Of a DNA stretch of 64,000 nucleotides, positions 13,856-64,000 are shown piece after piece (within the stretch, counting starts at the first letter, position 1; each line of letters opens with the position of its first letter). Location: the NCBI GenBank assembly GCA_037043015.1, contig CM073321.1, positions 19,961,001-20,025,000 on the forward strand. The letters are read 5' to 3'. The DNA is from Bryum argenteum. Taxonomy: Eukaryota; Streptophyta; Bryopsida; Bryales; Bryaceae. A model generated the notes under the pieces. That model was not told the origin of the DNA and did no database searches. It worked only from the letters and a program-made list of their open reading frames with translations. Position numbers and translations under genes: made by a program.

Positions 13856-15700
13856 TCACAAGTCTTGGAGAGAGCGCATGCCGGCAGCTTGGACAAGTTC
13901 ACGGTGCTTGAACGGCGGTAGCGCTTTGGTCAACATATCTGCAACGTTCTTGGATGACTCGATCTTCGTAACTGCTACCTGTTGTGTCTCCACAAGGTCT
14001 TGCATGAACCCAAAGAGTGTTGGGCTGATGTGCTTGACACGGTCGGATTTGATGAAGCCAGTGGCGACTTGGGTGACAGCTGCGGCGTTATCTTCGTGGA
14101 TGACTGTTGCCCGCGTTTTGAATGTTGTGTCGCACTGCTCGGAGATGGCTTGCACCATCGCGCGCAACCACACTGCTTCTCGTGCTGCCTCGTGAAGCGC
14201 CAGGAGTTCCGCATGGTTTGTGGACGTCGCAGTAATCGTTTGCTTGACAGATTTCCACGAAATTGGGACACCATTCTTGATGAAAATATAACCGGTTTGG
14301 GACTTACCGTTCACCTCGTCCGTTCGAAATCCAGAATCCGCATAGCCAGTGATAGCAGGATCTGCTTTCTTTGTGAAGTAAAGTCCAAGGTCTTCGGTGC
14401 CTCGGAGATAGCGCATGAGGTCCTTGATGCCGGCCCAGTGTCGATGTGAGGGCTTGCGGTTGTGGCGTGCCAAGGTGCTAACTGCAAAGGCAATATCCGG
14501 GCGCGTGTGGGTGGCCAGGTAGAGCAATGCCCCGACCGCTGCGAGGTACCTTTTCCGGTTCACTTCTTCCTCCTCCTCCTCGCTAGGTCGATAGGGATCA
14601 TCGTTGGTCTTGCTAGGGCGGATCATGGGTGCTGAGAGTGGATTTGCCGCGGCCATGTGGAAAGTCTGAAATACCTTCTTCGTGTAGGCCTCCTGATGGA
14701 TAAGAATCCCGCCATCCGGATGGTGGTGTACCTGAAGTCTTAGACAAAACGAGGTCTTTCCGAGGAGTTTCATCTCGAATTGAGAGGTGAGAAGTTTCTT
14801 AACTTCGGAACATAAGGCTAGAGTGCCGATCAGATTTATGTAATCTTCGAACACATGGGAACGAAATTCCTTGGCGTTATCCATGTGCAAGGTTTGAATT
14901 GGACTTTCTGGAAAATGGGCTCTATACCGGAGAATCATCGCTAGTATTTTGGGAAATACCATGTTGTGAGTGGTGAGGAGGAATACTTCAGCATGGGCTC
15001 CTGATGCATCTACCAAAACGAGGAAGTAAGAGAAGGGACCTGATTGTCGGCTGATTGGTCCGCAAACGTCTCCTTGTAAGCGCTGCAGCGGGCGAGGAAG
15101 CTCGGTCGGGAGCTGCCACCTCGAAGTCGCCCTGGCGTACTTCCCCCGGATGCAGGCTGAGCACTTGGCTGTCTTATCCGCATCGCTTGTGCTCAGGTTG
15201 TGGCCGGTGAGTGCTGGTACCATTCTCCGAAACATTGTAGTGCCTAGGTGCCCAAGTTGTTTGTGCCACAATGTGGCCTTCGGTAACGCTGCCAGGTTGA
15301 CCGATATAGGCGCGTCCACCGTAATCGTCAATGCATACAGGCCAGTCGTTCCGGCGCTCACTTTTGTAATGAGTTGCGTTCCTTTACGCAACTCAAGTGC
15401 AGCGTCATCATCATTTTCACCCAAGGTGGAAATGTGGATCCCATTTGCACGCAAATCCCGGTAGCTGATCAGGCTACGGGGTGCGGCTGGAGCATACATG
15501 GCTCTTTCAATCCTGAGGGGGAATCCCCCGGGCAAAACTACCGTTGCCCGGCCCTCCCGGAACTTGAAGTTCCGGCTTCCGGCAATTGTGAGAATCTCAC
15601 AATTCAACCAGGATCCGCGCATGCAAGAAGACTCAAAAAACAGAGGATCTCTAGGAATTGTGTGAGTGGACGCTGAGTCTAAGAGAGCAGTCTCGGAGAA
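13856..15700 (-). pseudogene. copia pol polyprotein with a large internal in-frame deletion
   Basis: The minus-strand frame begins just after the gag stop. In order it encodes the aspartic protease active site (LLDSASTHTI, about 15645-15675), the GAG-pre-integrase zinc-binding region (WHKQLGH), the first part of the integrase core (DVCGP, then DNAKEF), and, after an abrupt join near 14825, the tail of reverse transcriptase followed by a complete RNase H domain (ADSGF, TEAL-like region, HEDNAAA, DMLTKALP). The rest of integrase and most of RT, including its YVDD catalytic box, are missing, yet the frame stays open across the join. The product could not reverse transcribe or integrate alone. 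It could at most supply protease and RNase H fragments, so the element depended on other copia proteins. Confidence 0.9.
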
Positions 15701-15711
15701 TGAACTTTCTC

Positions 15712-16863
15712 TTAGCTGACTACCATGTAATTTTCGGCATCTAAGTTATTCAGGGAGGGTGCATCGAGGGAGTGCACTTCCCTCTTCTCCTCCCGGAGTT
15801 TTCTAAGTTCCTGATACATGTCGCATACATAAGGTGGTGACCTACATTCTCGTGCATAATGGCCATGTCGCCCACACTTAAAACATGTATCATCTCTAGA
15901 GTTGGAAGTATGGTGACACTGACTCTGCTGTGAGCGATCCTCTCTAGGATGGGACTGATCATGAGACTGAGTGTGATGAGACTGATTCTGTGAGTACCTC
16001 GAGTCGCGGTGATCGTACCGATCAGCATGGTATCGGTTGTAGGAGTCGTAGTGCCTGTTGTCGTGCCTGTATTGGTTGTAGTCACGGCCGCGTCCTGGGC
16101 CGCGACCTCCTCCTCGTCCGCCACGAGCCGGCCGTTTGGCTGCTTCAGTGCTGTGAACCTCCGGGGCGGGATTGGAGGATGCCGGGGTTCCGGCTGCCGT
16201 AGCTGCTGGAACTGCTGGGGCTGCGGGAGTGGATGCAGCGGGGGTTTCCGTTGTGTGCACTTCCCGGGCTGGGCGGGACTCCGCATTCCGTAGGAGGATC
16301 TGCTGTTGCTTCTCTGCAAGGAGTAGATATGACATGAGTTCAGCGTGGGTCTTGAACTTCATATTACGGTACTGTTGCGAGAGAATGGCTGTAGCCGGTG
16401 GGAATGTCGACAACGTTTTGTCCATGAGTTCGGCTTCCGTCACGCGTTCTCCACAGAGTCGTAGCTGGGATGTCAAGCGATGAAGTTCCGCGTTAAATGC
16501 TTGAAAGTTGGGGAAGTCGAGTACTCTCAGGTTCACCCAATCGCTACGAGCTTGCGGGAGAAAAAGGTTCTGCTCATGTTGGAATCGCGCCTGAAGCTGC
16601 TTCCATAATTCCGCCGGATCGTTGAGTTGCACGTATTGTTGACGGAGAGACGCGTCCATGTGGCGGCGGATGAGAAGCAGGGCTTGCCATTTCTTTGCGG
16701 TTGGGAGATCATCTGCGGTGTCTGGATCAAGAACAGCGTGTAGCTCCTCGGCGTAAAGATAGGTCGTCATGTCATTGTTCGACTCCAAAAAGTTAGAACC
16801 GTCGCCCTTTAGGGCATCGAACATCAGCGTTTGAGTACGGACCTCTCTCACCGAGGTAGCCAT
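15712..16863 (-). CDS. copia Gag nucleocapsid protein
   Basis: Virus-like-particle structural protein of the retrotransposon, 383 aa from an ATG at 16863-16861. The frame is open about 100 bases further upstream, but this ATG starts the conserved N-terminus. The first half is the alpha-helical UBN2/retrotran-gag domain; then comes an Ala/Pro linker, an Arg/Gly and His/Tyr/Asp-rich stretch, and one CCHC zinc knuckle (CFKCGRHGHYARECR) for RNA packaging. The stop codon lies just before the pol frame, which is open across it in the -1 frame. The frame looks intact, unlike pol. Confidence 0.9.
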   Translation of the reverse strand: MATSVREVRTQTLMFDALKGDGSNFLESNNDMTTYLYAEELHAVLDPDTADDLPTAKKWQALLLIRRHMDASLRQQYVQLNDPAELWKQLQARFQHEQNLFLPQARSDWVNLRVLDFPNFQAFNAELHRLTSQLRLCGERVTEAELMDKTLSTFPPATAILSQQYRNMKFKTHAELMSYLLLAEKQQQILLRNAESRPAREVHTTETPAASTPAAPAVPAATAAGTPASSNPAPEVHSTEAAKRPARGGRGGGRGPGRGRDYNQYRHDNRHYDSYNRYHADRYDHRDSRYSQNQSHHTQSHDQSHPREDRSQQSQCHHTSNSRDDTCFKCGRHGHYARECRSPPYVCDMYQELRKLREEKREVHSLDAPSLNNLDAENYMVVS

Positions 16864-17336
16864 GGCGATCGGGGTGGTCACGATAAAAGAAAAGCTAGTT
16901 GCTAGGTTGATCGGGAATTGAAAAAACAGGGAGTATTCGTGCGAAAATGTGAAAAAGAATGACAAGTAAGGTTTCAGACGAAAAGCTGAAAAAAGACGGA
17001 CAGGGGAGAGATTTCACGAGAAATTCAACGTGGCTTGCTGCATTCGGTGAAAGATGTGGGGGACTCTCGGTTGCTCCTCCAGGAATCGAAAAACACCGGG
17101 ACCATCCGGCTCTGGAACGTGAAAAATAACAGAAAGCTAATAGAAAACTAGAGTTGTATTCTACGAGAAAAGCTATGCGGAGTATGGAGTAAAAAGATCA
17201 GCTAGACGGGAGGATGAGAGTCGGAGCTAGGCAATCAATCGCAGCAACGGGAGCCATGGTCACGGCAGTAATCGCAGCTAGGGAAAAGAGGAAAAACATG
17301 AAAAGCAGAAAATTGCGAAGCAACGTGTTGATAACG
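16864..17336 (-). other. copia 5' leader with primer-binding-site region
   Basis: Non-coding leader between the 5' LTR and gag. The first bases after the LTR on the minus strand read CGTTATCAACACGTT, which is not the usual TGGTATCAGAGC complementary to the initiator tRNA 3' end. The primer is therefore unidentified; an internal-tRNA primer is possible. No coding capacity seen. Confidence 0.55.
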
Positions 17337-17462
17337 TGTTGAGAGCATCAACGAGAGAAAGCAAGAGGGAGAAAACAAGAATTGGTGAAAGAGTGCCAAG
17401 AGCTTCAAGAGCCTCGGGCTTTATAGAGATCGGGGTTGGTGAGTACAGGTGGCACCGTAATG
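17337..17462 (-). repeat. 5' LTR of copia, left half
   Basis: First 126 bp (plus-strand order) of the split LTR. It stops at the ATG (17460-17462) that is duplicated at 26568-26570 on the other side of the CACTA insertion. Confidence 0.95.
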
Positions 17463-17600
17463 CACTAGTACAAAACCACGATTATTTGACTGGGGGCACT
17501 TGACTGCCTAGTCAAATTTTTAAAAATGAGTCAAAAATCGTAGTCAAATTGTCCATAGTCAAGGCTTAGTCATATGTGTAGTCAACAAATAGCGGCACCT
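17463..17600 (+). promoter_or_regulatory. Left terminal inverted repeat and subterminal TGACT/AGTCA motifs
   Basis: The terminus is followed within 140 bp by about eight TGACT or AGTCA pentamers. In En/Spm elements subterminal repeats bind TnpA. That these pentamers are the binding sites here is inference. Confidence 0.7.
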
Positions 17601-18009
17601 CGATGGGAACGCTAGGGAACAGAATTTCAGTGTGTTCCCCGACGGACGTCATCTCCTTCGACGCATCCTCCCGAAATATGATCGCACGCAATCATAAGAC
17701 ATTACTACAAAAAGAATTGGGATTTTTCGGATGCTCTCCTTAATCTTTGAGTGAGTTTGAGTATTGAGGTTTCGCTTCGGTTAAGCCCAAATCCTGGTCT
17801 CTTTGCATAATTATTTTATTCGTCATTGTACAAATTTTATTTGCAAGTAACTATCTAGGACATCAAAATCACAGAAGGTTGTATCTCTGTTAGAAATAAG
17901 ATTTCAGATGTAAATTAATGTGAATACCGGCAAGGAGATAGTTACAAGTACTAATTAAAGACTATCTTCTGAAATCATATTCCTTATGCAAATGGTTACC
18001 GCCATGCCA
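17601..18009 (+). other. Left interior of CACTA copy 1, no gene seen
   Basis: Non-coding AT-rich sequence between the left subterminal motifs and the repeat block. No open frame or clear repeat was recognised. Confidence 0.4.
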
Positions 18010-18155
18010 GTACGAGCACCCGGGTGAGGCCATAAGAGAGGGTGCCCGCACCAGCAGGGTCAAAAGTGGGCATTCCAAGTCTCAAGTATGAGCACGCGGG
18101 CGAGGCCATAAGAGAGGCTCCTGGTACCAGCAGGGTCAAAAGTGGCCATTCCAGC
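18010..18155 (+). repeat. Degenerate tandem duplication bordering the satellite
   Basis: Two units of about 78-bp spacing share gaggccataagagagg and cagcagggtcaaaagtgg. The second contains CTGGTACCAG, a variant of the GGTACC palindrome of the adjoining satellite, so this may be a degenerate edge of the array. Confidence 0.65.
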
Positions 18156-18188
18156 TCATTTGGTTGCAAAACTGTCTACTTTCCATGC

Positions 18189-19788
18189 TTTGAAGAGCCG
18201 CCAAATCCTCATACAATGTCCGATTTTGACGAAATTTGTTGGGTTGGGTTGCAAGTCAAGTCTAGTTTCAATTCTAAAAATGGAAACTTATCTCAAGACC
18301 CCATGAAAAGATTGAGTGAAAAATGATGAAAGTTGCCCTGCCGGTACCGGCAGTGCAATTTTCATGAAGTTCTCCATGTTTGAAGAGCCGCCAAATCCTC
18401 ATACAATGTCCGATTTTGACGAAATTTGTTGGGTTGGGTTGCAAGTCAAGTCTAGTTTCAATTCTAAAAATGAAAACTTATCTCAAGACCCCATGAAAAG
18501 ATTGAGTGAAAAATGATGAAAGTTGCCCTGCCGGTACCGGCAGTGCAATTTTCATGAAGTTCTCCATGTTTGAAGAGCCGCCAAATCCTCATACAATGTC
18601 CGATTTTGACGAAATTTGTTGGGTTGGGTTGCAAGTCAAGTCTAGTTTCAATTCTAAAAATGAAAACTTATCTCAAGACCCCATAAAAAGATTGAGTGAA
18701 AAATGATGAAAGTTGCCCTGCCGGTACCGGCAGTGCAATTTTCATGAAGTTCTCCATGTTTGAAGAGCTGCCAAATCCTCATACAATGTCCGATTTTGAC
18801 GAAATTTGTTGGGTTGGGTTGCAAATGAAGTCTAGTTTCAATTCTAAAAATGAAAACTTATCTCAAGACCCCATGAAAAGATTGAGTGAAAAATGATGAA
18901 AGTTGCCCTGCCGGTACCGGCAGTGCAATTTTCATGAAGTTCTCCATGTTTGAAGAGCCGCCAAATCCTCATACAATGTCCGATTTTGACGAAATTTGTT
19001 GGGTTGGGTTGCAAATGAAGTCTAGTTTCAATTCTAAAAATGAAAACTTATCTCAAGACCCCATGAAAAGAGATGAGTGAAAAATGATGAAAGTTGCCCT
19101 GCCGGTACCGGCAGTGCAATTTTCATGAAGTTCTCCATGTTTGAAGAGCCGCCAAATCCTCATACAATGTCGGATTTTGACGAAATTTGTTGGGTTGGGT
19201 TGCAAATCAAGTCTTGTTTCAATTCTCAAAATGAAAACTTATCTCAAGACCCCATGAAAAGATTGAGTGAAAAATGATGAAAGTTGCCCTGCCGGTACCG
19301 GCAGTGCAATTTTCATGAAGTTCTCCATGTTTGAAGAGCCGCCAAATCCTCATACAATGTCCGATTTTGACGAAATTTGTTGGGTTGGGTTGCAAGTCAA
19401 GTCTAGTTTCAATTCTAAAAATGAAAACTTATCTCAAGACCCCATAAAAAGATTGAGTGAAAAATGATGAAAGTTGCACTGCCGGTACCGGCAGTGCAAT
19501 TTTCATGAAGTTCTCCATGTTTGAAGAGCCGCCAAATCCTCATACAATGTCCGATTTTGACGAAATTTGTTGGGTTGGGTTGCAAGTCAAGTCTAGTTTC
19601 AATTCTAATAATGAAAACTTATCTCAAGACCCCATAAAAAGATTGAGTGAGAATTGATGAAAGTTGCACTGCCGGTACCGGCAGTGCAATTTTCATGAAG
19701 TTCTCCATGTTTGAAGAGCCGCCAAATCCTCATACAATGTCGGATTTTGACGAAATTTGTTGGGTTGGGTTGCAAATCAAGACTAGTT
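18189..19788 (+). repeat. 190-bp tandem satellite inside the CACTA element
   Basis: Eight full units starting at 18189, 18379, 18569, 18759, 18949, 19140, 19330 and 19520, plus a partial unit at 19710, nearly identical to each other. Each unit carries the palindrome TGCCGGTACCGGCA. In the last two occurrences (19474-19499, 19664-19689) this extends to a perfect 26-bp palindrome, which earlier units break by one A-to-C change. Each unit also contains a chance open frame of about 66 codons, but 190 is not a multiple of 3, so the array is not protein coding. Confidence 0.97.
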
Positions 19789-20053
19789 CAATGTTCCCCA
19801 CACATCATAGTCTCCTCAGTCACAAACACATCCAGGCCCAAAAAGGCCATTTCAATGAGGCCGAGAATGTGTTGCAGAGTCCACTTCTACCCTCTACAAC
19901 AACACACGAGCATGAGATCAAACATGAAATCAATATTCTGGTAATGGTCCACATGCAAGAGACATATAGGAAAAAAAAATAAGAATGTGAGTGGCGGGAA
20001 GTCTCAGCATCTCATTAGTATCATTGAAAATCAAGTTTGGAAATCGTATTCCT

Positions 20054-20269
20054 TTATTGATTCACATGATAGAAAGTATACAACTCATCTCCAATTGCAA
20101 TGTCTCGGGTTGCGACGGTCATTGTGTACCCTCATTCGTGTGTACACCATGGTCTAGGTAAATCAATGTACTCCCAAATGCAATTCCCTATTTCGTGTCG
20201 TCCTTTACTACTGTTGATGAAGCCCGCAACATTTCCAATTAGTACATCACCATCCTGATAGACATTATT
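20054..20269 (-). pseudogene. Captured SET-domain C-terminal fragment (CACTA copy 1)
   Basis: The minus strand encodes the C-terminal core of a SET methyltransferase domain: DGDVLIGNVAGFINSS, then a conserved NC, and after an in-frame TGA (20134-20132) VATRDIAVGDELYTFYH ending at TAA. GNVAGFIN corresponds to the cofactor-binding NH motif region and GDELYTFY to the catalytic Tyr region. The exon opens directly after CTGCAG, an acceptor-like sequence, so genomic DNA with an intron boundary may have been captured. The TGA falls where related proteins seem to have Trp (HE*GY). It is opposite in orientation to the TnpA gene and shared with copy 2 at 63166. It cannot encode a working enzyme alone, since the N-terminal SET half is absent. 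Confidence 0.75.
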
Positions 20270-20998
20270 CTGCAGCTTGCAAGACGTTTCGTTTGAATCG
20301 CGGATTGGAAGTACATAGTGAACGATACTCAGATCGAGAGTGGAGAGTGCCCACAAACGGCAACAACTCATCGCCTACAGCTGCTGGCTACATGGCAAAC
20401 GAACCCCATCCCATGAAAGGGAACTTCGAAACTTTAATCTCCCAAGTACGGCCGAAAAATGTAAATTGCGTCAACTTTGGGATAGGACCTGGATGCCATT
20501 GTCCGTGTAATCTTGTCGACGTTGAAGCGCACGCGTTAGATTCTGTAGGTGTTCTATCAACGAGCTTTCCTATTATAGGGATCTTTGCCGAAATAGTCCT
20601 TGCAGCGGTAGCGTCAGAAATGCGGCAAACAAGAACAAGCGGCCGACGCTGTTCCTACATTGTTAACACTTGGTCTGCATTAAGTTCCGCTATGTTCTTT
20701 GAAGGAGAAATTAAGGGAATCTCTGACAACAAATTGCAAAGGCCGAAACTGAGAGAGGGTTGTAGATAGGTCACTAACCAAGAAAGATTTCGTGAGTTGG
20801 GGATCGCGTTTGTACAACCGCGAGATGCTTCCGGATTGTCTCGCGACGCATACGTCTCCCCCATGCATCGCTTGCGGGGACATGAGTAACTAGTGAGTCC
20901 CCGTAAAGCGTCCTCTTTTTCCTCCTCTTGCCACAATGTCAAGTCCGCCACTCCCTCCGCGATTGTGTGTCCATCGATTAACGCATGAAAATGATGAA
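20270..20998. other. Captured DNA of unknown origin beside the SET fragment
   Basis: The same sequence occurs in copy 2 (62430-63165). Open frames exist on both strands (for example 20293-20769 plus and 20655-21062 minus), but they are broken differently in the two copies and match nothing I know. It probably arrived with the SET fragment as intron or flanking DNA. Confidence 0.45.
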
Positions 20999-21155
20999 CC
21001 ACTTGACTAAGAGTATGACTATCTTGACTGACAGTAGTCACAGTGTGACTAGAACGGGTCACTAAGAAGGGTTAATTTGACTACCCATAGTCAACACAGT
21101 CATCTTAGTCATTGGGGATGACCGTATGTGCTCGTGAAGATGACTGCAATTTTGA
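20999..21155 (+). promoter_or_regulatory. Internal TGACT/AGTCA cluster upstream of the TnpA-like gene
   Basis: More than ten TGACT or AGTCA pentamers in about 155 bp, the same motif as at both element ends, some 250 bp before the TnpA start codon. It may be the remainder of the left subterminal region and may act in autoregulation. Both ideas are inference. Confidence 0.65.
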
Positions 21156-21406
21156 AGAACAACGGCTATTTGTAGTAGCCAGGGGTGCCTACGAGTAGGT
21201 TGGTAGGTGGCTGCCAACCCTAATTGCATTTAAAGCAACGCCGTCATTTGAAATCTTCTCTGATTTGAGTGTCAAATCGAGTAACATCAACAAAGATCAT
21301 AGCCGCCTACGCACATGATGTTCTTCTTCCTCCTTGCACTCCTATTTTCCGCCATGGCTGTCATTTTGCAGCAAAATCTGTATTTTTCTGATCGATTTGG
21401 AGAGAG

Positions 21407-24400
21407 ATGGAGTCAAGTGAGGGAACGACGGTAGTGGGAGCGAGTGACGAGGTTGGAGAAGAAGAGATCGTGGAGGAGACGCTCATTACCGTCACAAAGA
21501 TCCGCAAAGACCGATAACGACAAATCGACGCGCCGATCCCGACGCCAAAGCGGCCGGCAAGAACAGCGACGGATCTGATGATAGAAAAAGTGACGACGAC
21601 GAGGGCCACAGTGAGAAGGAGGACGTCAGCGACGGTGAAGCAAACAGCAAAGGTGACGGTGACGAAGGCGAGGGTGACGAGGGAGAGTGTAGGAGTAGTT
21701 CGGCTGCAGAGAGTGACGGTGAGGAGGGCGATGGTGAGGAGAAGGCCGAGGGTACACACAGCGACGGTGAGGAGGGCGAGGGTAAAGAGTGTGAGGACGA
21801 CGTCGGCAAGGGAAGAGCCAACAAAGGAGGGCGAGGGGGCTCGGGCGATCGTGGGAGTAGCTCCGCCAAGATAGCGACGCCGAGGAGCCCGACGCGCCAA
21901 ACAAGGCACCGATAAGGCCGAGGTGTAGAGAGCGACGGTGACGAGGGGGACGAGGGTGAGGAGGGCGACACGGAAGATTACACCCCTCCAACGAAGGAGA
22001 CGACACCGACTCAAAGACAAAGTCCTCCGCCGAGTCGACCGACACAAGCAAAGACATCCACATCCGACGGCTCGTCGAAGAGGCGAAAGACAAAGCGAGG
22101 TAAACGGGCACAACCAAAGAAGAAGGAGGTTCCGGCACCCGCTGCGCGTCTGAGCTCCGGAGAGGCGAAAGAACTTTGAGCGCAATCGTGCCTACCCGAA
22201 AGAGCTCGAATCCCGGGGGCTTCTTTGCGGTCATCTTCGCAAAAATTCAGTCCCCTTCAAGTCATCACCAAGATCATCGAAGAGGTTAGAGCACGAGTCA
22301 AACTCTCCGCCACATCAATGCTTTGGTCAATCTATGCAAGTTCAAAGGCGGTCTTTGCGCACCATTGCAAATCTCAGTGACGTGGAAGTTCAACACATTT
22401 TTCGAAATGTAGCTTTATTTCCACAAATTTCTGCCGGAGTGTTAGAGAGAACTGCAATCCTTCTCACCGATGTGTTTGAGGACTCCAGGAACGTATCTGA
22501 CGAAGACCTGATCCGTCCGCCCAGAAGGTCTACGCGTTTGAGACCTGAACGGGATTTGTCGCCGCCTGTGAGGAGGTCTGGACGCAAGATCACGAAGGAC
22601 GAGTCAAAATTTTTGACACCGCCGAAGAAGCAGCCACCAAGAGCTGTCAAGAAGGGCAAGAAGGTTGCTTCGGAGTCGGAATCCACCGCGGACTCAAAAT
22701 CCAGCGCTGAAGAGGAGGACGAAGAAGAGAACAAGTCGGTAGGGGAGGAACGACCGTTGGAGCCTCCCGTGAAACGGGCACGTCCGTCTTCACCATCACC
22801 GAAAGTGACCCAAGAATCTGCTCCCAAGACTCCAAAGAGAGCAATTCAATTCGACACAATCGCAACCAATCCGCAGGAGTGGAGTGTGAAGAAGCGGGAC
22901 AACCTTCCCAACGCTAGAGGTACCACGATACCGCCAAGGCACCCTCGGCCATTAGCAACACCGCCAAGGCCCCCTCGACCGTTGTTGTTTCCTTCAGTTG
23001 AGGATATTATCACAGCTACAATACCCACCAAGATGTCAGAGGATACGTGGTCCGGAGATGGCTGCCACCTTGACTTCACGACGCCGAATGAGCCGTTCGC
23101 GGAATCTAATGTTCGAAGAGAAGTGGTGGATTTCCTACCAAGTGCAACACAGAACATGGACGCTCGCGATCATGAGATTGCTGACTTGGACTTGGCAATT
23201 GAGGAACAACAACTCCAACTCCTCCGGAAGAAAAGGGCGGCCATGCAGGCACGGCAGGGTGAGCTTCAACGAGCCAGCGGCGAAGGCCCAAGTAGTCCCG
23301 CTCCGGTCAGGTCCTACGATGCTCTTCAGAAGGCCAAGAGGAGGCAAGTACTCAAGCAACAAGTGGATGTGCTTCCAATCCGAGAAGGCGAGGGGCAAAA
23401 GAGGTTTGTTGTGGAGGTGGACTACCAGGGATTCCCGGTGGGGGATTATCGACAAACGTGGCTAACATGCTTGCGAGGTCAAACAGGAGACATCGACTTC
23501 AGCGTCGACAATTATTCGCAGCATGATATGGGGATGTTGATGGCTGTGAAGGAATCGGTGGACAAAGTCTTCGAGTACAAGGGAGGCTTGCAGAGGGTGA
23601 CGGATAAGGCTTTCCACACCATGTTGAAGGGCCAGCTCAAGAGTGCAAGGTACCAGCTCAAGAAATTGATGCTAGAAGGATCTCCCAAGCCTCCTCATAT
23701 TAGATAGGATCACTGGGTAAATCTTTCGAAACTCATAGTGGATGAGCGGAAGATCATGGAAGCAGAGAAGATGCGAGCAAACCGGGCACACGTGAAGAGA
23801 CTCTCCAAGGCTGGTCGCACGGAAGGGGCCGTGAAGGCCAATCTGCAATGGCCACTCTCACTTAATTATGTCATATTGTGATCGATTAGGTTGAGAGCCC
23901 ATGCAAGGACAATGCGATGATTGACTAATATTCAACTACAAGATGGATTTGTGGCAGGCGATGGAACTTCAGCGGTCTCCAAGTCGGGAAGAATTAGAGA
24001 GAGAAATGGCTCGTGAGAAAGGGGCCCGAAAGCGGAAGGTGGGCAGTGACGTGGTTAGGGAGGTGTCGGGAGGAAGCAGACTAGAGCCCAGATCACCATC
24101 AAGCCGAGTAACTCATTTGGCGTCGGAGACGAACCTGGCCTCTCGCATGTCCGGTATAGAGGCGAGCATATTGCTCATTATGGAGCATCCGAGAATCCCC
24201 ATTCCAGTCCATCATATGCGGCGCAAACAACTCTCCACCCTCCCGAGTATGCGCGCTACGCAAAATGAATCCACACTCGGCCAAACACCCTCGCCTTTGC
24301 ATTCGGCACTTCAACTTAGCTTCTAACCGGGTGGGAAAATCATCACCCAACAGATTATTTTTTTCTTGCACCCATTTGAGATGATGAAACTAATCGTAAT

Positions 24401-25752
24401 GTTTCATTTATCGTGTTTATCGTGTTGAAGATGCCCGAATGTGAAATTCGACGCTAACAATCAAATGCGTGCTTCGCGCACACGTAGCCGAGCGTCCTCC
24501 TTCCGAAGCGGATGTCGATGATGGCACACCGGACTTGGAGGTGCTCCGTGAAATCGACGCCATTGGAATTGTTGCATCAACTTCGCCTACCCCGTTGAAA
24601 GAAGACAATGCGGCTCCAAAGGCCGCTCGGAAACGGCCAAGAATGACGGAGGTGGAGAAGCTCCAAGCGTAACCCGCGAGCAACGCGCCGGACTCGGGCA
24701 AGATCCGACACTACGGTAAGGGTGTAGACCCCATCTGGAAGGCACCGAGCGAAGAAGAGACCGACCCGAGCCGCAGCGTAAAGATAAGGAAGCTAGTGCG
24801 AAGGCGAAACGAGGGGAAGAGAAGGCCCCCGCTCCGCCAAAGCGGGGAAGGAGAAGAACCTCAACTCCCCACTAAAGGTAAAGAGAGGCGATTCTGGCGG
24901 CGGGGAAGGAGAAGGCCGATGCCCTAGCAAGGGCGACGGGGAAAGAGAAGGCCGACGCCCAACGAGCAAAGCGGGGAAGGAGAAGGCCGATGCCCAAGCG
25001 AGCAAGGCGGGGAATGAGAAGGCGGACGCTCCAACGAGCAAAGCGGCGAAAAAGAAGCCTGATGCCCCAGTGAGCAAAGCGGGGAAGGAGAAGGTCACGC
25101 CCTGCGAGCAGAGCAGGGAAGGAGAAGGCGGTTGCAGCTGCCCCTGCAAGCAAAACAGGGAATTCAAAGGAGAGGGCCGATGCGCTTACAAGCAAAACCA
25201 GGAAGGAGAAGCCTTTAGAGGAGACCGCAAAAGCAGCCACGAAGGAGACCAAGAAAGGAGCCACGAAGGAAACGCCAGATTCCAATGCCGCCGCAAAGGA
25301 GAAGGCCCGGGGGATAAACAACAATAAATTGGGTGAGGATGGAAAACACCGCCGAACGTCGACTTCAACCGAGGTCCGGCAATAACTCCTTCGGAAATTT
25401 AGTTTATGGAACTGCATTTTAGCAGTTTTCTCTAACATGTGTAACTTACCACCGTTTGCAGGTTCAATTCGAACCCGGTGACCAAGTGCACATCATGGGC
25501 GTTGACGAGGGTGAAGAAGACAAGATCGTAGCCGATGGAGAAGTGCTCAGCGTGGAGGGGGGCACGTTACATGGCAGGCAACTAACGGAGGGTATGGTAT
25601 CAGTACAAGTCCTGAAATGCTACAACAACGACTACGTACTCTATCAGCCCATCACCCTCAATGATCCACCAGTGACTAAAATGGGCGAGGCACATTTACA
25701 GTGGATTGCATGGCCAACCGAATTCCTCCGTCACCTAGAGTGTTTTCTCTAA
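21407..25752 (+). pseudogene. TnpA-like CACTA protein gene, broken (copy 1)
   Basis: In the En/Spm superfamily TnpA-type proteins bind subterminal repeats. The ATG at 21407 opens an acidic domain that hits a stop near 21516 after an indel relative to copy 2. The frame is recovered at 22334-23707: a conserved block (VEVQHIFRNVALFPQISAG), a basic Pro/Ser linker, and a region like Plant transposase Ptta/En/Spm (Transposase_24: GFPVGDYRQTWLTCLRGQ). A TAG at 23705-23707, shared with copy 2, interrupts homology that continues (DHWVNLSKLIVDE). Further pieces are 23943-24180 (MDLWQAMELQRS), a frameshifted Lys/Ala repeat region (24470-25383), and a C-terminal exon 25462-25752 like TNP1/EN/SPM Transposase_23 (DKIVADGEVL...WIAWP). 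Domain names are by recalled similarity. Confidence 0.8.
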
Positions 25753-25989
25753 GTTAGAACGCCGATGCATTTATAGCACGTAAACTTGCATGCATGTATT
25801 CTAGACTGTGTACAATTACATGTGGTATATGCGGCTTGAACAACATACACCTAAAATTTTGATTCAATTGCAAACCCATAACTGTGCAGCATTGCTGATT
25901 GATATTTAGCAATACTCGTAGCCTATTCTTTCTAGACTCCACGAAAACATATAACACCTTAATTAATAACTCACAACCACATGACAAAA

Positions 25990-26567
25990 ATTAGTCATCG
26001 CCGATGACACCACATCGCCACTACTCGACTATACACAGTCATCCGAGATGACTGCAGTCATGACAATTGACTCCAACCAGTCAACTTTGAATCCCTACCT
26101 GACTCCTCAAAGTCATATTCACACAATATACGCTCCTTAAAACCGCGACGATGACTGCATGCAGTCAGCAGCCTTTAGATGGCAACGAATCCATTGACTG
26201 AATTATGTAAAGTCGTATGACTGCAAATAGTCGTAGTATTATAAGCCACACTCTGCCAGCATGACCAGACTTAGTCAACCGAATTCACGTAATTCACAGA
26301 CGACTGTTGACTGGTTGCAGTCATAAGTTTTGACTAATCCGAGTCATTCAAACGAAGTCCCAAGTCCAGCCCAATCGAGGTCCCAAAAATCGTCGGGAAC
26401 GCAGCGCATGGGAATGCCGATGTCCGTTTTTGACTGCGAGTCAAAATGTCCGGAGCGACTTGTCCTTTTTGACTCGAAATAGTCTTAGTCAAGTTCGAAA
26501 AACATGTCCGTTTTTGACTGCTGGCTAGTCAAAAATGCAGTCAAAAAATCCGGGATTTGTACTGGTG
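25990..26567 (+). promoter_or_regulatory. Right subterminal region with TGACT...AGTCA inverted pairs, and right terminus
   Basis: At least eight imperfect palindromes of TGACT-N(2-9)-AGTCA type, such as TGACTGCAGTCA and TTGACTGGTTGCAGTCA, are packed between 26020 and 26350, with further single motifs up to the terminus at 26567. The arrangement fits TnpA binding and DNA-end pairing in CACTA elements. Confidence 0.75.
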
Positions 26568-26570
26568 ATG

Positions 26571-34828: not shown

Positions 34829-36294
34829 ATGGATTCTAGTAGGGAACGCATTCTTGTGTTACTTTCAACTTTCATGGTCATGAAGTATGTCATTGTGGGC
34901 ATTTTGGCATTGCAAAAACTTGCAATTTTTCAACAAAATGTCCAAATGATGATGATGGTAGTTTTTATTACACAAGGACCGCGGATGAATTATCAAAGGA
35001 GATGTTGGCATCATAAAAGATATGGCGGTTTTTGGACGAGACGCTTATGAGGTCATTTTCAGATAGTGATTTTCGGAAACGGATGAGGGTGAGTACATCT
35101 ACATTTCAACATTTATGTACTCTATTGGGGCCTGTTTTGAAAAAGAAGGATACACATTTAAGAGAAAGTATTAGTGTGGAGCGTAGGATTGCAATTACTC
35201 TTGCTCGATTAGCAAGTGGAAATTCATTGCAAATGGTTGCTGATTTATTTGGGGTTGGATTGAGTACAACTTCTATCATTGTAAGGGAGTGTTGTGAAGC
35301 AATTAGGATTCATTTGAGACCATTGGTTTTTATAAAACCAACTCTTGATTGGATGAAACAAATAGCAAAGGGTTTTGAAGCACTTCATGGCATTCCGTTT
35401 ATTCTAGGTGCAATAGATGGTAGCCACATCCCTATTATAGCACCATCTCATGATCCCGTAGCATATTATTGCCGAAAGGGGTATTATTCATGTTTACTAC
35501 AAGGAGTCGTAGATGCGAATTGCAAATTCTGGGACTATGATTTTGGATGGGCTGGACGGATTCACGATTGTGCATTATTTCAGAAATCTGAAATTGGAAA
35601 GAAGACTATGAAAGGTGCATTTTTACCTTACAAATTCATTGGTGATGCCGCATATCTTATGAGGCCTTGGTTTTACTCACCTTTTAAGGGAGAAAGAATC
35701 GGATTGTCTAGAAGAAAGGCTCATTGGAATTTTATTCAGTCAAACACTCGTATGGCTGTAGAAAGAGCATTTGAGATTTTGAAAGGAAGATGGCGTATAC
35801 TATTGAAACGGGTTGACATGCCAATCTGGAATTTGCCGGACACAGTTACCGCATGTTTATGCCTTCACAATTTATGCATTATAGAGAATGATGAATTTTC
35901 CATGGAGTGGGCTAAAGAAGCTGAGAAGGAGCTACAAGATGAAGCAAAAATATCACTAGGAAAATTGCATCAAGTAGATATGTTTCATTCTCTAGAATCA
36001 GCATTGAGAGAAATGAGGCTGCTGCAGAACCGCAATCTGGATTCAGAAGAAACACCATTCATAGAACCGGGAGAAGAAGAAGAAATTGAGAGGATGCATG
36101 AATCGAGTGATGAAACAAAAAAAGAGCGGCAGGAGAAGATGAAAAGTATGTTGGCAGATGCAACTCGGATCCATTTACTACTAGCAAAGAGCTTTTACAA
36201 AGCTCATTTGGAAAAAAAATCAAATTTTCAGTTTGAAAGTTGTACCTACGATGATGATGAGGATGACTATGATGCAAGCTCGAGTGAAGAGTAG
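34829..36294 (+). CDS. PIF/Harbinger transposase (DDE_Tnp_4)
   Basis: Catalyses cut-and-paste transposition in the nucleus. The open frame 35032-36294 (420 aa; first ATG at 35047) holds the full catalytic triad: D in GAIDGSHI (residue 129), D in IGDAAY (205) and E in VERAFEILKGRWR (244). A helix-turn-helix-like segment comes before it (NSLQMVADLFGVGLSTTS), and an acidic C-terminal tail follows. An upstream ATG at 34829 opens a frame ending YGGFW; it joins the main frame only if one T is added in the T run near 35029-35033. The gene is therefore frameshifted there, sequenced with an indel, or starts at 35047. Length fits the family. Confidence 0.92.
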
Positions 36295-36308
36295 ATAGCT
36301 ACAGAATT

Positions 36309-37515
36309 CTATAGCTTATTGATCAAACGATCAAATTGGTAATCTACCCTCTCTAGCAGCTCATTAGTTCTCTCAAAGTTTTTCATCAAACCTGTGCTAG
36401 TTTCTACCATTTTTTCGAAGATATCTATTGCACGATCTTGAAAGTGTTGTTTACCTTTTGATGTGGGTGTTGTAGTGGGTGTTGAAATTTGTGCACTCTC
36501 ATCTTCTTGTGCTGAATTGACTTGGAAGTCTGCATTATTGTTGGTAGTAGCCGAGACATGCTTCATCACTTGTCCGGCTTGGTGATACCACTCATATAGA
36601 GCCTCATAGAATTTTCCCTCTTGCCGGTTATTACTAGAAATCCCATTTGCCAATTTGTCTTCTTTGTATGCATCGAAGATGCTCTTGAATTTCTTACAGC
36701 ATGCCACGGTCGTACGGTTGAATTTAGGTAGCATAACAACCATTCTAGCATGAGGCCTTACCCATGTGTCGATTCCTGCAACCAAAAGAGCAAAAAAATG
36801 AAAGAATGAGTGAAAATTGGCCATTAAAAAAAATTGCAGCACATACATGGACTCTCATACAAAGTCTGTGATTGCTACATATACAAGAAATTGGTGGAGT
36901 TGATCACCAATGGAGGGTGGTAGATAGAGGAGGGAACTCTCCTCTTTGTAATGGAGGAGACTAGGGTTCAAATCCCTAGCTCTACGCTCTTTGCTTTCCT
37001 TGTGGGGGGAAAGGGGGGCCTGGGCTCGCGGCGAAGGCAAAGGCCTTTAGGCCCCCAATTGGCCCCAATCCTCAATCCAATTTTTATTGAAATTTCGACA
37101 ATTAGGCAGAAAAATTTGTACCTTGTTTTTTGCCATTTCGCACGAACTTCGGCTCCATCTCTCCTTTTAGTGCGATGAGTTGAAGCACCTCCGAATCCTC
37201 CCACTTTCGATTTGCTTCCTCTCCTTCTCTTTCGATTTTCACCACCGTTTTTGAAGCCCTTGGAGTCTTTGCTGTCTTTGAAGCTTTTTGCTTAGGAGCG
37301 GCTCTCTTCTTCGAAGACCCTACAATCTCACAATCTTCTTCTTCTTGAACAACTCTCTCTTCTACTCTTTTACCATCCCTCTCCTCTTCTCTTCTCTCCA
37401 AAACTTGACCTAAATAGGGCTGAAATGCTCCATACGAGTTTGAGGCTAAAAATTTTTCATTCCCCACTAGAATCGGCTGACTACAATAGTAAGGATTTTG
37501 AGAGAGATGATCCAT
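36309..37515 (-). CDS. PIF/Harbinger Myb/trihelix-like accessory protein
   Basis: In PIF/Harbinger elements the second protein binds the termini and recruits the transposase to the nucleus. Two exons on the minus strand, 37515-37122 and 36775-36309, joined by a GT/AG intron of 346 bp. They total 861 nt, giving 286 aa plus stop with clean phase. A basic region (KKRAAPKQKASKTAKTPRA) precedes a Trp-centred trihelix/Myb fold (RKWEDSEVLQLIALK, then WVRPHARMV, then CKKFKSIFDAYKEDK), and a coiled-coil-like C-terminus follows. The frame is open upstream to 37632, but this ATG gives the sensible start. It looks intact. Confidence 0.88.
36776..37121 (-). other. Intron of the Myb-like gene with a tRNA-like B box
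   Basis: On the plus strand GGGTTCAAATCCC (about 36963-36975) fits a RNA polymerase III B box. A degenerate A-box-like sequence lies near 36890, and GC-rich DNA follows. This may be a SINE remnant; no target duplication was found. Confidence 0.3.
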
Positions 37516-45900: not shown

Positions 45901-46440
45901 TCCAAAAGTTATCCACCCTAGCATGCTTTTACCCATACCCAATGTCCTTAATAAGAAAGGGCGGAGATCTATCTACTGGATACTGCCTATGAATTAGATT
46001 GTTTTGCGGTGCCATATGTTGCAATGACCAGCATGTTAACATACGGGAATCATTGGTAGACCGGGGCATGCCTAAGTACAAGTCTAAAAATTTCTTGTTA
46101 TTGTCTACCACGGCTTGACAATTAAGCGTGTACCCCCGCAATTTCAAATAGTAATAATCTGCTAGTCTATGTTTAGGTTTAGATATGGCAATGTGAATGC
46201 CGTCAATGGCCCCAACAACAGCCGACATGCCACACAACCTATGGAAATTGCTTAAATATTCCCCAAGTCTCACACTCGATGGCAACACTATCACATGGCA
46301 CATGCTATCATTGATAGCCTGCACCACCTCCCACAATATAATGGAATCAATACTCTTTCCAATAGAAATTTTTTTGCTACAGATTATCAGGCTAGCCCCA
46401 TGACTTAATGTGCATGCCACCCTAATTTCAACAGAAATGG
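45900..46440 (-). pseudogene. PIF/Harbinger transposase remnant
   Basis: The minus-strand open frame 46420-45929 encodes ISIGKSIDSIILWEVVQAI (helix-turn-helix end), then SAVVGAIDGIHIAISKP with the first catalytic Asp, YYYLKLRGYTLNCQAVVDN, and a degraded PRSTNDSRML. It stops before the second and third catalytic blocks, so it is truncated at both ends. It is more diverged from the intact copy at 34829 than fragments of one subfamily would be. Confidence 0.85.
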
Positions 46441-49090
46441 CAATCCTTTACGTTATGTCATGGCGCTGCACGTAAAGCTTCGACACATCTAATAATGCGA
46501 ACATGGCTTTCTTTAACATTCTAAACATGTGAACCCATCTACAATCATCTTAATGATCCAACAAAAATGGGGAAAACCAGATAGTAGATATTGGCTAAAG
46601 CCAATATGTTGTCTCCCCGTCAAAGAGCAAAAACAGTATGCAAAATGTGTAGTTGTTCAAGCCGGCGCTGAAGACTATGTGGAGGTTGTATATACGCCGC
46701 ATTAAGTTGCCTCCTAGCACTATGGAAGGATCTATAACATCCTCGTCTCCACCATCGTCAATGGACAGGGGCTCGGTTCATGGAGAAACAGCCATGCTAT
46801 GAATGCGAACACAGACCTTGGATGCATCTTCGTATCTATAGAGCGAGGCAAGAAGAACTTGTATAGCAATACACGACATTGTATGAGTAGAGAACCATGA
46901 ACTTGACCCTCATCAATATTTTAAATCAATGTTTAATACTAAAGAACATTGAACAATTATTCCGACGAAAGGAACTGATGTAAGTGATTCCGGCAACGCT
47001 TGTCACAATGATAACAATGTCCGTTCACTCATCTGCAGATGTTGTCGTCGGATTATCTGGAAACTCGGAGCCGCTTGTGGATTACTAGATATATTTTGTC
47101 ACATTCATGTTTGGAGTACCCGTGATTCAGAAGTTGTTTGCTGCTTGTGCTCCTTATTGTTTGGTGGGTCCAATGTTGACCCTTGTGTTGTTATGGCTTC
47201 CAACCGGCATCAACATGCACAACCTTGTTTTCCTATAGTTTATTTAAATTGGGTCCGAATAGTCTTTAGGAGTAGGAAAAAATGAATGAATAAGAGCAAT
47301 TACCAGCCTGCTTTTCTAGCAACAGGATTAAAATGAAGTAGTAGAAAGGGTCCGTCTTAATGCAGATCCTTAGACCATAGGAACTAGTTTGGTTTCTGAA
47401 TATTTTAATTTTTTAGAGCCTTAGGTGACCATTACCTAGATAGAAACCAGGAGGAGCTTGTCCGGATGACTCTAGATCAGCTACGGAGAAAACCCGGCTA
47501 GGAGTCAGACTCGGTACAAATAAAACCCGGGCGTGGATAAGGTCGCGAGTTGCGGCGGCACCGTATCAGGGCTGACACATGCGACGTAAACGTGCCACTG
47601 CTATTTACTAGCTCAGTACCTTTCCACCATATTGTTCACGATACTATTCACCTACCACATTTCATTTTTGTGTTCTCCGCCCGCGGCAACAAGCATCCCA
47701 ACGCGTTTGTTAGACGTTCTAGCACAAGAGATGGAGCATTTCGATTGCGTCGCCCGTATCCGGAGAAACGTTGTTGCTCGTCGCAATGGCAGAATGGTGT
47801 ACACACCCAAGATAAGATCAACCGGAATGTAGTCTACTTGGAGATACCGGCGGAGGCTGTAGCTCAAAGGGTATTGCTAGAAGACCTGCGCCGGGTTCTT
47901 CTATGTTTCTTGAGAAATTTGGAATGCCAAAATCATCGTGGAGATTTTTACTGGGAAGATTCCTCAACAATTCATTAACAATCAAGTCCGGAGGAAGGAA
48001 TAATTTTGGAAGGAGAATTGCACGAGGATAATGTATTGGTTTTCGGCGCCAGAGACTAGATACATCCAAGTCCAAAGAGACAAGACGTTGGCAATGCGGT
48101 TCGACCATCCGATGCACGACAGCTTCAGAGTGGAGCACTGCATCAACGCTAGGGAGCGCGGGTACTCAGGTTCCTCGTGCTGTTTTTTTGCTAGTTACAA
48201 TACTTCTAAGGGTAGTATAGTTTGACTCGGATAAATTATGTTGTACACCTCAAATTAGTTACTATATACATTTGTTTCGAGAATTTGTATGTATTCTAGT
48301 TTCGGCAATTTATGAGTTTTGTTTGGGAGCTTATTTTCCCATTTTCTAAAGAGGGCATCAATGCCCCATCTAGTATGAGGTATTTATTACATATGTTGTC
48401 TCATATCAATGGATTTCTTAAAATATTTGATTTTTAATATATACATTTTAACTTTGAAGGGGATATTCGTTATTTTAAGAAAAAGTGCACATATTGAGAT
48501 GTTGAGAGACATACACTTGAGCAAAATAGAATAGAAGTCGTTGAAGTATTTAAAAGATATGAAAGTTGAATCCACATGTCGAACCTAAAAGAAGAGTTGA
48601 AGGGTGCAAAAAGACAATAATGTCTTAGCAAAATGGAGTTCTTACCATTTATAGAAGGAAGTATAGTTTAATTTGGCATTTTTAGTATTACTAAAAATAG
48701 AAGTTCAACGATTGAAACAGAGCGTAGTCAAAAATCACACAAGACCATATTCTCATAAATTCACAAGACTAGTCACATTCAATCCAAGTGTCAAAATATA
48801 GTGTAAGATATAAGAGAATGAATGAAGAGGCAATAAATGTTTTACCCTTAACAATCCTAAACATAGAGTAAATTGGAGAAGGTATGTAGAATATACGAAG
48901 AATATACTAATCATATACGAGCTATAAATGCATAGTTAAGAAAGGAAATAGTTTACAACTAAACACAACTAGCTAAGCTCTGAAATCAAGATGTATGAGG
49001 TTCCACAAAAATGCTAAACTTTTAGTGTAGAACATATCCTGCCATTCAAGGATATCAGAATCATGTAGGAAGACCACAAAGTACGAACAT
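46441..49090. other. Intergenic, no gene seen
   Basis: Scattered open frames (for example 47632-47978 and 48031-48225) have no recognisable domain and no consistent coding run. 48240-49090 is AT-rich and empty. Confidence 0.35.
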
Positions 49091-62440: not shown

Positions 62441-63165
62441 TTCATCATTTTCATGCGTTAATCGATGGACACACAATCGCGGAGGGAGTCATGCGGACTT
62501 GACATTGTGGCAAGAGGAGGAAAAAGAGGCCGACGCACGGGGACTCACTAGTTACTCATGTCCCCGCAAGCGATGCATGGGGGGAGACGTATGCGTCGCG
62601 AGACAATCCGGAAGCATCTCGCGGTTGTACAAACGCGATCCCCAACTCACGAAATCTTTCTTGGTTAGTGACCTATCTACAACCCTCTCTCGCTTTCGGC
62701 CTTTGCAATTTGTTGTCGAGATTCCCTTAATTTCTCCTTCAAAGAACATAGCGTAACTTAATGCGGACCAAGTGTTAACAATGTAGGAACAAATCGGCCG
62801 CTTGTTCTTTTGCGCAATTACTGAGACGCTACCGCAAGGGACTATTTCGGCAAAGATCCCTATAATAGGAAAGCTCGTTGATAGAACACCTACAGAATCT
62901 AACGCGTGCGCTTCAACGTCGACAAGATTACACGGACAATGGCATCCAGGTCCTATCCCAAAGTTGACGCAATTTACATTTTTCGGCCGTACTTGGGAGA
63001 TTAAAGTTTCAAGTTCCCTTTCATGGGATGGGGTTCGTTTGCCATGTAGCCGGCCATTGAGGCGATGAGTTGTTGCCGTTTGTGGGCACTCTCCACTCTC
63101 GATCTGAGTATCGTTCACTATGTACTTCCAATCCGCGATTCAAACGAAACGTCTTGCAACTGCAG
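62441..63165. other. Captured DNA of unknown origin, copy 2
   Basis: Counterpart of 20270-20998. Open frames on both strands are not conserved between copies, so no gene is called. Confidence 0.45.
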
Positions 63166-63381
63166 AATAATGTCTATCAGGATGGTGATGTACTAATTGG
63201 AAATGTTGCGGGCTTCATCAACAGTAGTAAAGGACGACACGAAATAGGGAATTGCATTTGGGAGTACATTGATTTACCTAGACCATGGTGTACACACGAA
63301 TGAGGGTACACAATGACCGTCGCAACCCGAGACATTGCAGTTGGAGATGAGTTGTATACTTTCTATCATGTGAATCAATAA
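63166..63381 (+). pseudogene. Captured SET-domain C-terminal fragment (CACTA copy 2)
   Basis: Same fragment as 20054-20269: GDVLIGNVAGFINSS, then NCIWEY, then the shared TGA (63301-63303), then VATRDIAVGDELYTFYH and TAA. The opening follows CTGCAG. Reading frame and stop are identical in both copies. Confidence 0.75.
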
Positions 63382-63654
63382 AGGAATACGATTTCCAAAC
63401 TTGATTTTCAATGATACTAACAGATGCACAGACTTCCTGCCACTCACATTCTTATTTTTTTTTCCTATATGTCTCTTGCATGTGGACCATTACCAGAATA
63501 TTGATTTCATGTTTGATCTCATGCTCGTGTGTTGTTGTAGAGGGTAGAAGTGGACTCTGCAACACATTCTCGGCCTCATTGAAATGGCCTTTTTGGGCCT
63601 GGATGTGTTTGTGACTGAGGAGACTATGATGTGTGGGGAACATTGAACTAGTCT

Positions 63655-64000
63655 TGATTTGCAACCCAACCCAACAAATTTCGTCAAAATCCGACATTGT
63701 ATGAGGATTTGGCGGCTCTTCAAACATGGAGAACTTCATGAAAATTGCACTGCCGGTACCGGCAGTGCAACTTTCATCATTTCTCACTCAATCTTTTTAT
63801 GGGGTCTTGAGATAAGTTTTCATTTTTAGAATTGAAACTAGACTTGACTTGCAACCCAACCCAACAAATTTCGTCAAAATCGGACATTGTATGAGGATTT
63901 GGCGGCTCTTCAAACATGGAGAACTTCATGAAAATTGCACTGCCGGTACCGGCAGTGCAACTTTCATCATTTTTCACTCAATCTTTTTATGGGGTCTTGA
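63655..64000 (-). repeat. 190-bp satellite, start of array in copy 2
   Basis: About 1.8 units before the window ends. Both visible junction palindromes (63745-63770, 63935-63960) are the perfect 26-bp form. Confidence 0.95.

Follow-up and report, generated by a model that had tools for sequence, protein, structure and literature searches.

A resident SET exon in a CACTA transposon lineage of Bryum argenteum and its possible link to the transposase gene

How does part of a SET domain come to lie inside a CACTA (EnSpm) transposon? The first-pass annotation of the window, by which we mean the whole 64,000-nucleotide stretch analysed, had placed such a part at positions 20054-20269 and read it as a captured host-gene fragment. 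SET homology is indeed present in both CACTA copies of the window, but the extent, the exon edge and the antisense overlap assigned to it were wrong. The stretch belongs to a resident, constrained SET exon of the CACTA lineage, represented here by a decayed copy, and the earlier interpretation is mostly wrong. On balance we think it probable that the lineage carries a resident SET gene whose product would be guided by a transposase-associated domain (TAD) and may oppose silencing, when this reading is taken as a whole; its parts are graded separately below.

The SET homology in the two window copies

Translation of the minus strand of 20054-20269 gave NNVYQDGDVLIGNVAGFINSSKGRHEIGNCIWEYIDLPRPWCTHE and GYTMTVATRDIAIGDELYTFYHVNQ, each followed by a stop codon. 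With X at the internal stop, the piece matched positions 56-104 of the 105-position Pfam SET profile (E 3.2e-4) at 21.5 bits, just below the cut-off of 22.4 bits. It represents the C-terminal part of the SET domain and the last third of an exon whose broken remains in copy A extend upstream as far as 20654 and include internal stops and a frame break. Copy B carries the same stretch in inverted orientation, a 26-base probe giving two matches against 0.00 expected, and the internal TGA is found in copies A and B alike. Translation, profile match and probe together bear out SET homology inside the element in both copies. The bare fragment matched no solved structure, but the full-length family does.

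The fragment had been described as opening at an acceptor-like CTGCAG. The relatives and copy B read straight through this hexamer (...VLQLQNNVYQDGD...), which rules out a captured fragment with its edge there; CTGCAG resembles an exon edge because the frame of copy A breaks at this point. The likely SET acceptor, TGTAG/GA, lies about 385 bases further upstream, as placed by eye in the window and by comparison with relatives.

Copy A spans 17463-26567 (9.1 kb), with terminal inverted repeats (TIRs) CACTAGTACAAAACCACGATT... and ...AATCCGGGATTTGTACTGGTG and an ATG target-site duplication at 17460-17462 and 26568-26570. The ends, obtained from a TIR scan and from reading of the flanks, match those of the alignment of the two copies, and the CACTA-type TIRs together with the 3-bp duplication identify a CACTA/EnSpm element. 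Copy B, located by alignment to copy A and a terminus scan, is inverted and extends from 56867 beyond the window end at 64000; the copies are 96% alike over 7.2 kb. The two-exon SET gene of copy A runs from about 20974 to 20054 on the minus strand. Exon 1, which encodes the TAD zinc finger, is decayed and frame-broken at 20779-20974 (edges by eye against relatives) and was recovered as a partial match, C1:19981844-19981957, in a genome search with exon 1 of family F3 (see below). The decayed SET exon occupies 20054-20654, with its final stop at 20054-20056, as delimited by comparison with relatives. On the plus strand of copy B, exon 1 lies at 62465-62663 (genome match C1:20023496-20023657) and the SET exon, interrupted by its TGA, at 62787-63381, the edges of both being set by eye. 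An acidic gene at 21408-23707, plus strand (start by eye), diverges from the SET gene; its frame is broken in copy A and its counterpart in the relative L031 is a 642-aa frame. It had no Pfam match, and we call it TnpA-like from position and composition alone. The SET piece had been called antisense to this gene; it does lie on the opposite strand, but the two do not overlap.

By alignment to L031, copy A carries the equivalent of L031 58-595 and then of 4652 onward. The intervening 4-kb block of the relatives, tnp2-DUF4218-DUF4216 (L031 596-4651), is replaced at 18000-19852 by 1.85 kb that includes 8.5 copies of a 190-base unit (18182-19792). The 595/4652 junction is common to copy A, L030, L034 and L042; copy B and L029 also have no tnp2 within the sequence examined, and all six of these deleted copies are on contig C1. 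Judged from the alignments, the window copies are non-autonomous deletion derivatives in which tnp2 has been lost and SET has decayed. The 190-base unit contains GCCGGTACCGGC, and the array occurs again at 63646-64000. In L030, three CACTA left ends at 1182, 2325 and 3469 lie about 1.14 kb apart, each after tcacaa, as a local duplication of the terminus.

The SET exon family and its conservation

The assembly (258.8 Mb in 25 contigs, with the window on C1) was searched with the 71-residue translated fragment. At least 74 matches were obtained, corresponding, when match pieces less than 3 kb apart were joined, to at least 71 loci on 11 contigs. C1 holds 32 of the 71 listed loci, above the share given by its length (44.1 Mb). 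As 44 of the 74 listed matches extend over 60 residues or more with no stop, and open frames of at least 190 codons contain 31 of these 44, the fragment belongs to a family of SET exons and is not an isolated piece; among eight such regions read as short stretches, the frames of L052 and L053 are only partly SET. We read 28 genome loci, 20 as stretches of 10 kb and eight of about 1.25 kb, and assigned them to families by eye and by identity: F1 (the window copies, L029-L040 and L042), F2 (L041), F3 (L043-L048 and L051-L055), F4 (L049 and L056) and F5 (L050). Among the loci read, no single copy was found intact throughout. No TIRs were recognised for F2 and F3 in the stretches examined, and the F4 and F5 stretches were too short.

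All six full-length exons tested (L031 and L035 of F1, L041 of F2, L046 of F3, L056 of F4 and L050 of F5) passed Pfam SET, with 31.4-41.2 bits over profile positions 1-104 of 105; the window piece itself falls just short of the cut-off. The SET exon of L031 has a shifted start but a whole SET domain. Nine loci of the five families with open SET frames (192-219 residues) were aligned, near-identical and broken ones being left out. SET identity between L045 and members of the other families is 44-65%, with 52 invariant columns in the alignment, and each of the nine ends in its own stop, 3 to 16 residues past the last invariant Tyr. Elsewhere, the SET frame of L051 is longer and that of L040 stops early.

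Over the SET core (nine sequences, 140 codons), omega was estimated at 0.133 (lnL -2365.9, against -2498.1 at omega 1 with kappa fixed at 2 in the null), an estimate made on intact open frames with near-identical and broken ones omitted and so biased toward low values. Synonymous sites are saturated in 29 of the 36 pairs. Two F2/F3 pairs gave omega 0.17 and 0.18, and five within-family pairs ranged from 0 to 0.46 on few changes: L045-L046 differ by eight synonymous and no other changes, the F1 pairs gave 0.22-0.34 and the F4 pair 0.46, both again on few changes. As read from codon substitutions, the comparison shows purifying selection on the SET core between families. Constraint looks weaker in the younger F1 and F4 pairs, as one would expect of transposon copies in decay. 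F2 and F3 are mutually nearest in SET (65% identity versus 51-52% for F1), in tnp2 (59% versus 35-43%) and in TAD (70% versus 56-62%), as co-inheritance of the three would predict.

These data bear directly on the original proposal, in which a SET fragment taken from a host gene would give rise to antisense or small RNAs directed at its parent. Capture of pieces of host genes is known for CACTA elements (PMC8978399), but the window piece derives from a complete SET exon that has splice sites, is constrained and occurs in five families; sister elements hold whole SET exons, and the relatives carry the full domain beside the element's own TAD exon and tnp2. The 216-base stretch used as a DNA query gave 18 matches, 15 of them in loci that we read. 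These 15 (the two window copies and 13 others) are all element copies, so that no near-identical parent appears outside the element family in 15 of the 18; a more distant host ancestor may exist. The remaining three matches represent two unread loci, one of which has a TAD exon upstream. We regard the proposal as extremely improbable.

Sources outside plants were also considered. None of 71 candidate stretches in viral contigs was related, and a viral source was rejected. A prokaryotic source was likewise set aside, the 18 of 103 bacterial candidates at 22-30% identity being taken as ordinary SET similarity. In NCBIfam, five of the nine aligned members matched a bacterial SET-containing effector family (best E 1.9e-7), to which member 1 gave only E 0.21 and 10.3 bits against a cut-off of 550. 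Two of the nine matched PHROGs (best E 0.0024), and a phage tblastn search returned one chance match only (E 6). From the domains of the element, we infer that the CACTA lineage carrying SET is plant-type.

A SET exon between TAD and tnp2

Exon 1 comprises 66 codons with the pattern MDxxSR...CPCKxCMGGR...TIRxHLR...(I/L)L before the GT, and is open in the relatives. It resembles PF13963 (transposase-associated domain), with E 5e-5 in F1, 3e-4 in F3 and 3e-4 in F2, all below the cut-off of the profile. At 61 of the 71 listed SET loci, a same-strand TAD exon precedes SET by about 0.5 kb. Conversely, in a genome search with F3 exon 1, in which 150 of 222 candidates were scored and all counts are lower bounds, SET follows 438-668 bases downstream in 59 of the 70 best TAD matches versus 4 of the 80 weaker ones. 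Since 11 of the 70 best TAD matches have no SET match within 2.5 kb (two of them pieces of one locus) and ten of the 71 listed SET loci have no TAD match, either exon appears to have been lost or to have decayed at some loci. The strong TAD matches without SET include C8:205007, C7:1199690, C4:134848, C4:286652 and C4:357609 (G000); such loci are candidate elements that lost SET, and candidate natural controls.

The exon-1 donor GT was recognised in 13 of 18 loci checked, the exceptions being L038, L043, L049, L050 and L056, the last three of which are represented by stretches that are too short. The SET acceptor TGTAG was seen in 14 of 18 loci checked, and F5 has TTCTAG. The intron between exon 1 and SET measures 91-124 bases in F1, F2 and F3; the 99-base figure for L031 is the distance to an earlier frame start and not an intron.

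Downstream of SET lies the transposase. L031 has, in order and on the same strand, TAD, SET, Transposase_21 (E 1.3e-68), DUF4218 (4e-37) and DUF4216 (7e-6, below cut-off), and L046 has TAD, SET, Transposase_21 in two frames (1.1e-29 and 2.8e-44) and DUF4218 (8e-39), again on one strand. Of the 20 ten-kb loci, 16 have the start of tnp2 on the SET strand and downstream of SET. Three of the other four (L030, L034 and L042) retain 13 residues, and L029 shows none. Among the eight short loci, the tnp2 start is present in L049, L051, L052 and L056 and was not found in the available downstream bases of L050, L053, L054 and L055; for F5 these are roughly 600 bases. We hold it very probable, on comparison of these loci, that the lineage has this anatomy (a divergent TnpA-like gene, then TAD, SET and tnp2-DUF4218-DUF4216) and has maintained it for long.

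A SET-less sibling, L075, indicated how the two sides of the SET exon relate to each other. It has a 550-aa stop-free frame, open at both ends of the stretch, in which a TAD-like finger (YYCPCRNCHGGRR...) is followed by Transposase_21 (E 2.3e-57) with no SET between; the finger matched exon 1 at E 6.4e-5 and PF13963 only at E 0.29. Hypothetical TAD-tnp2 joins of L046, L048, L041 and L031 align with L075, the junction falling just past the finger, and exon 1 agrees with the finger in position. Since finger and tnp2 share one frame in L075, the SET exon sits between the halves of a transposase gene; the comparison covers this one sibling, and 13 other TAD matches lie in frames of at least 500 codons.

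Exon 1 ends in phase 0 and the SET acceptor is in phase 0; phase-0 acceptor candidates, found by eye, also precede tnp2 in F1, F2 and F3. The phases thus permit TAD to be joined either to SET or to tnp2. We searched for other conserved coding sequence and found none, either between the SET stop and tnp2 (three pairs among F1, F2 and F3, best E 0.002) or in the 1.2 kb upstream of exon 1 (two pairs among the same families, best E 0.002), while the controls gave 3e-98 for SET, 7e-41 for exon 1 and 1e-71 for tnp2. This leaves exon 1 as the one conserved candidate found for the transposase N-terminus and favours alternative splicing as the predicted arrangement. Under it, exon 1 would be spliced to the SET exon to give a TAD-SET protein or, alternatively, past SET to tnp2 to give the full transposase. 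That exon 1 is shared in this manner seems to us about evenly poised. The fuller claim, that one CACTA gene would yield both a transposase and a SET methyltransferase-like protein through a shared zinc-finger exon and that this has been kept in at least four, probably five families, is possible but has rather less than an even chance. A different fusion, of SET to the front of tnp2 through a donor before the SET stop, was examined and not adopted: GTAAAC or GTGAAT could serve in F3 and F1, but at this place F2 lacks a GT, and every family has a stop of its own close by, so a separate SET end is preferred.

The chief alternative to a shared exon is that there are two genes, one encoding TAD-SET and the other expressing tnp2 from its own promoter and starting at the conserved Met of DVxRM, the TAD having been lost to the SET gene. 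The stop that ends SET in all nine aligned members of the five families would suit such an arrangement, as would the Met at DVxRM in F1-F4 and the 0.16-0.5 kb that separate the SET stop from tnp2 in L031, L041, L045 and L046. However, the DVxR preceding the Met is itself kept in F1-F4 and has a counterpart (HDVQRQV) within the longer protein of L075, the phase-0 acceptor candidates lie upstream of tnp2 in F1-F3, and the interval between SET and tnp2 yielded no conserved first exon. We consider two genes a doubtful but substantial contender.

Likely activity and role of the SET protein

Active SET methyltransferases are marked by the motifs GxG and NHxCxPN and by a final Tyr. In the nine aligned members GWG, the Asn of FIN, the second Asn and the last Tyr are invariant; NHS is replaced by NSS, with Ser for His, in all nine, and YxG reads FVG, FLG or FVE. 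Neither pre-SET nor post-SET was found in the nine. A profile search of solved structures returned 82 distinct sequences at E <=1. Among the best 60 of these 82, yeast Set1 ranked first (E 3.9e-6), followed by ASH1L (8.6e-6), SETD2 and NSD (3e-4 to 4e-4), EZH2 (0.004) and G9a (0.04). Methyltransferase activity of the SET protein is plausible from the retained motifs, although the enzyme may be altered or dead, given NSS, the FVG, FLG or FVE and the lack of pre-SET and post-SET.

If it is dead, what has been retained could be a binding or dominant-negative module, such as a decoy for host silencing complexes or a regulator of the transposase. NSS in place of NHS, FVG in place of YxG and the weak, partial similarity to solved SET domains, at best E 3.9e-6, fit this idea, but an inactive protein accounts less readily for the four invariant features in nine of nine members and for the constrained core, and we think it somewhat unlikely. 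An active enzyme, in turn, could mark copies of its own element in a repressive or neutral way, as self-limitation or to label the ends for transposition. Whichever mark it sets, a TAD-guided SET protein would have its own family as target, and the class of mark is not readable from the sequence; against this stands the weak argument that the best solved relatives are Set1, ASH1L and SETD2/NSD, not G9a. This possibility we take to be quite unlikely.

We return to the TAD-guided, anti-silencing reading. An old acquisition of SET probably gave the element a TAD-guided methyltransferase-like protein that would act on the element's own chromatin. Through the shared TAD, this protein would reach the DNA or complex at which the transposase acts and there modify nearby chromatin, or some bound protein, to the benefit of the element, most likely by opposing silencing. 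Such a role for TAD-SET is tentative and, to us, somewhat less likely than not. Related elements with and without the SET exon in one genome offer a direct test of how plant transposons evade silencing, which is still an open question. Should the TAD be shared by splicing, the gene would also represent a naturally evolved scheme for directing a chromatin enzyme to a DNA family of choice.

In plant CACTA/EnSpm elements, such as Jozin of Chenopodium, ORF1 encodes TAD, Transposase_21, DUF4218 and DUF4216, and gene fragments, satellite arrays and added domains are known in CACTA (PMC8978399). The present lineage shares with Jozin-type elements the TIR type, the 3-bp duplication and, in the same order, a probable TAD, tnp2 and two DUFs. 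It differs in that its transposase gene holds, between TAD and tnp2, a SET exon that ends in a stop of its own, whereas the additions described in the Jozin source are Peptidase_C48 and Transposase_24 domains and AP2 fragments outside the coding sequence (PMC8978399). DNA transposons that encode SET proteins are on record: HarbingerS and MuDR families of Phytophthora carry SET histone methyltransferase genes (Kojima and Jurka 2014, cited in PMC12730594), in other superfamilies and hosts. Fungal DNA transposons including EnSpm and Plavaka carry TET/JBP genes, for which a role in countering silencing has been proposed; these too place an enzyme for epigenetic marks on a CACTA-like element, but the enzyme is a DNA dioxygenase and not a SET protein (PMC12730594). 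In primate SETMAR, SET is likewise linked to a transposase, but there the SET gene is the host's, joined to a mariner transposase, and does not belong to a mobile element. For other transposon superfamilies, SET genes have thus already been published, and the CACTA case adds a variant. Among the open-access papers listed, none mentioned SET within a CACTA element in its title or the opening of its abstract, and we found no open-access paper that brings Transposase_21 together with a SET domain.

A functional parallel is found in VANC, the anti-silencing proteins of Arabidopsis VANDAL elements, which are encoded by an element and act on the chromatin of its own family, often at tandem repeats; VANDAL elements contain tandem arrays that VANC proteins target (PMC5735166, PMC10398659). 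VANDAL elements differ in being MuDR-type, and the abstracts of these two papers name no SET domain. By this parallel, the 190-base array might play a targeting role, which is worth a test.

Other mobile sequences lie near the two copies. Immediately left of copy A, the minus strand at 13856-17013 holds the remains of a Copia-type retroelement, with gag, zinc-knuckle, integrase and reverse-transcriptase matches. A PIF/Harbinger-like DDE_Tnp_4 transposase (E 3.6e-28) occupies 35017-36854, beside a 181-aa frame on the opposite strand that has no Pfam match, and a second DDE_Tnp_4 piece is found at 45929-46447. Directly after the Harbinger-like pair, a tRNA-Tyr (gta) lies at 36910-36987.
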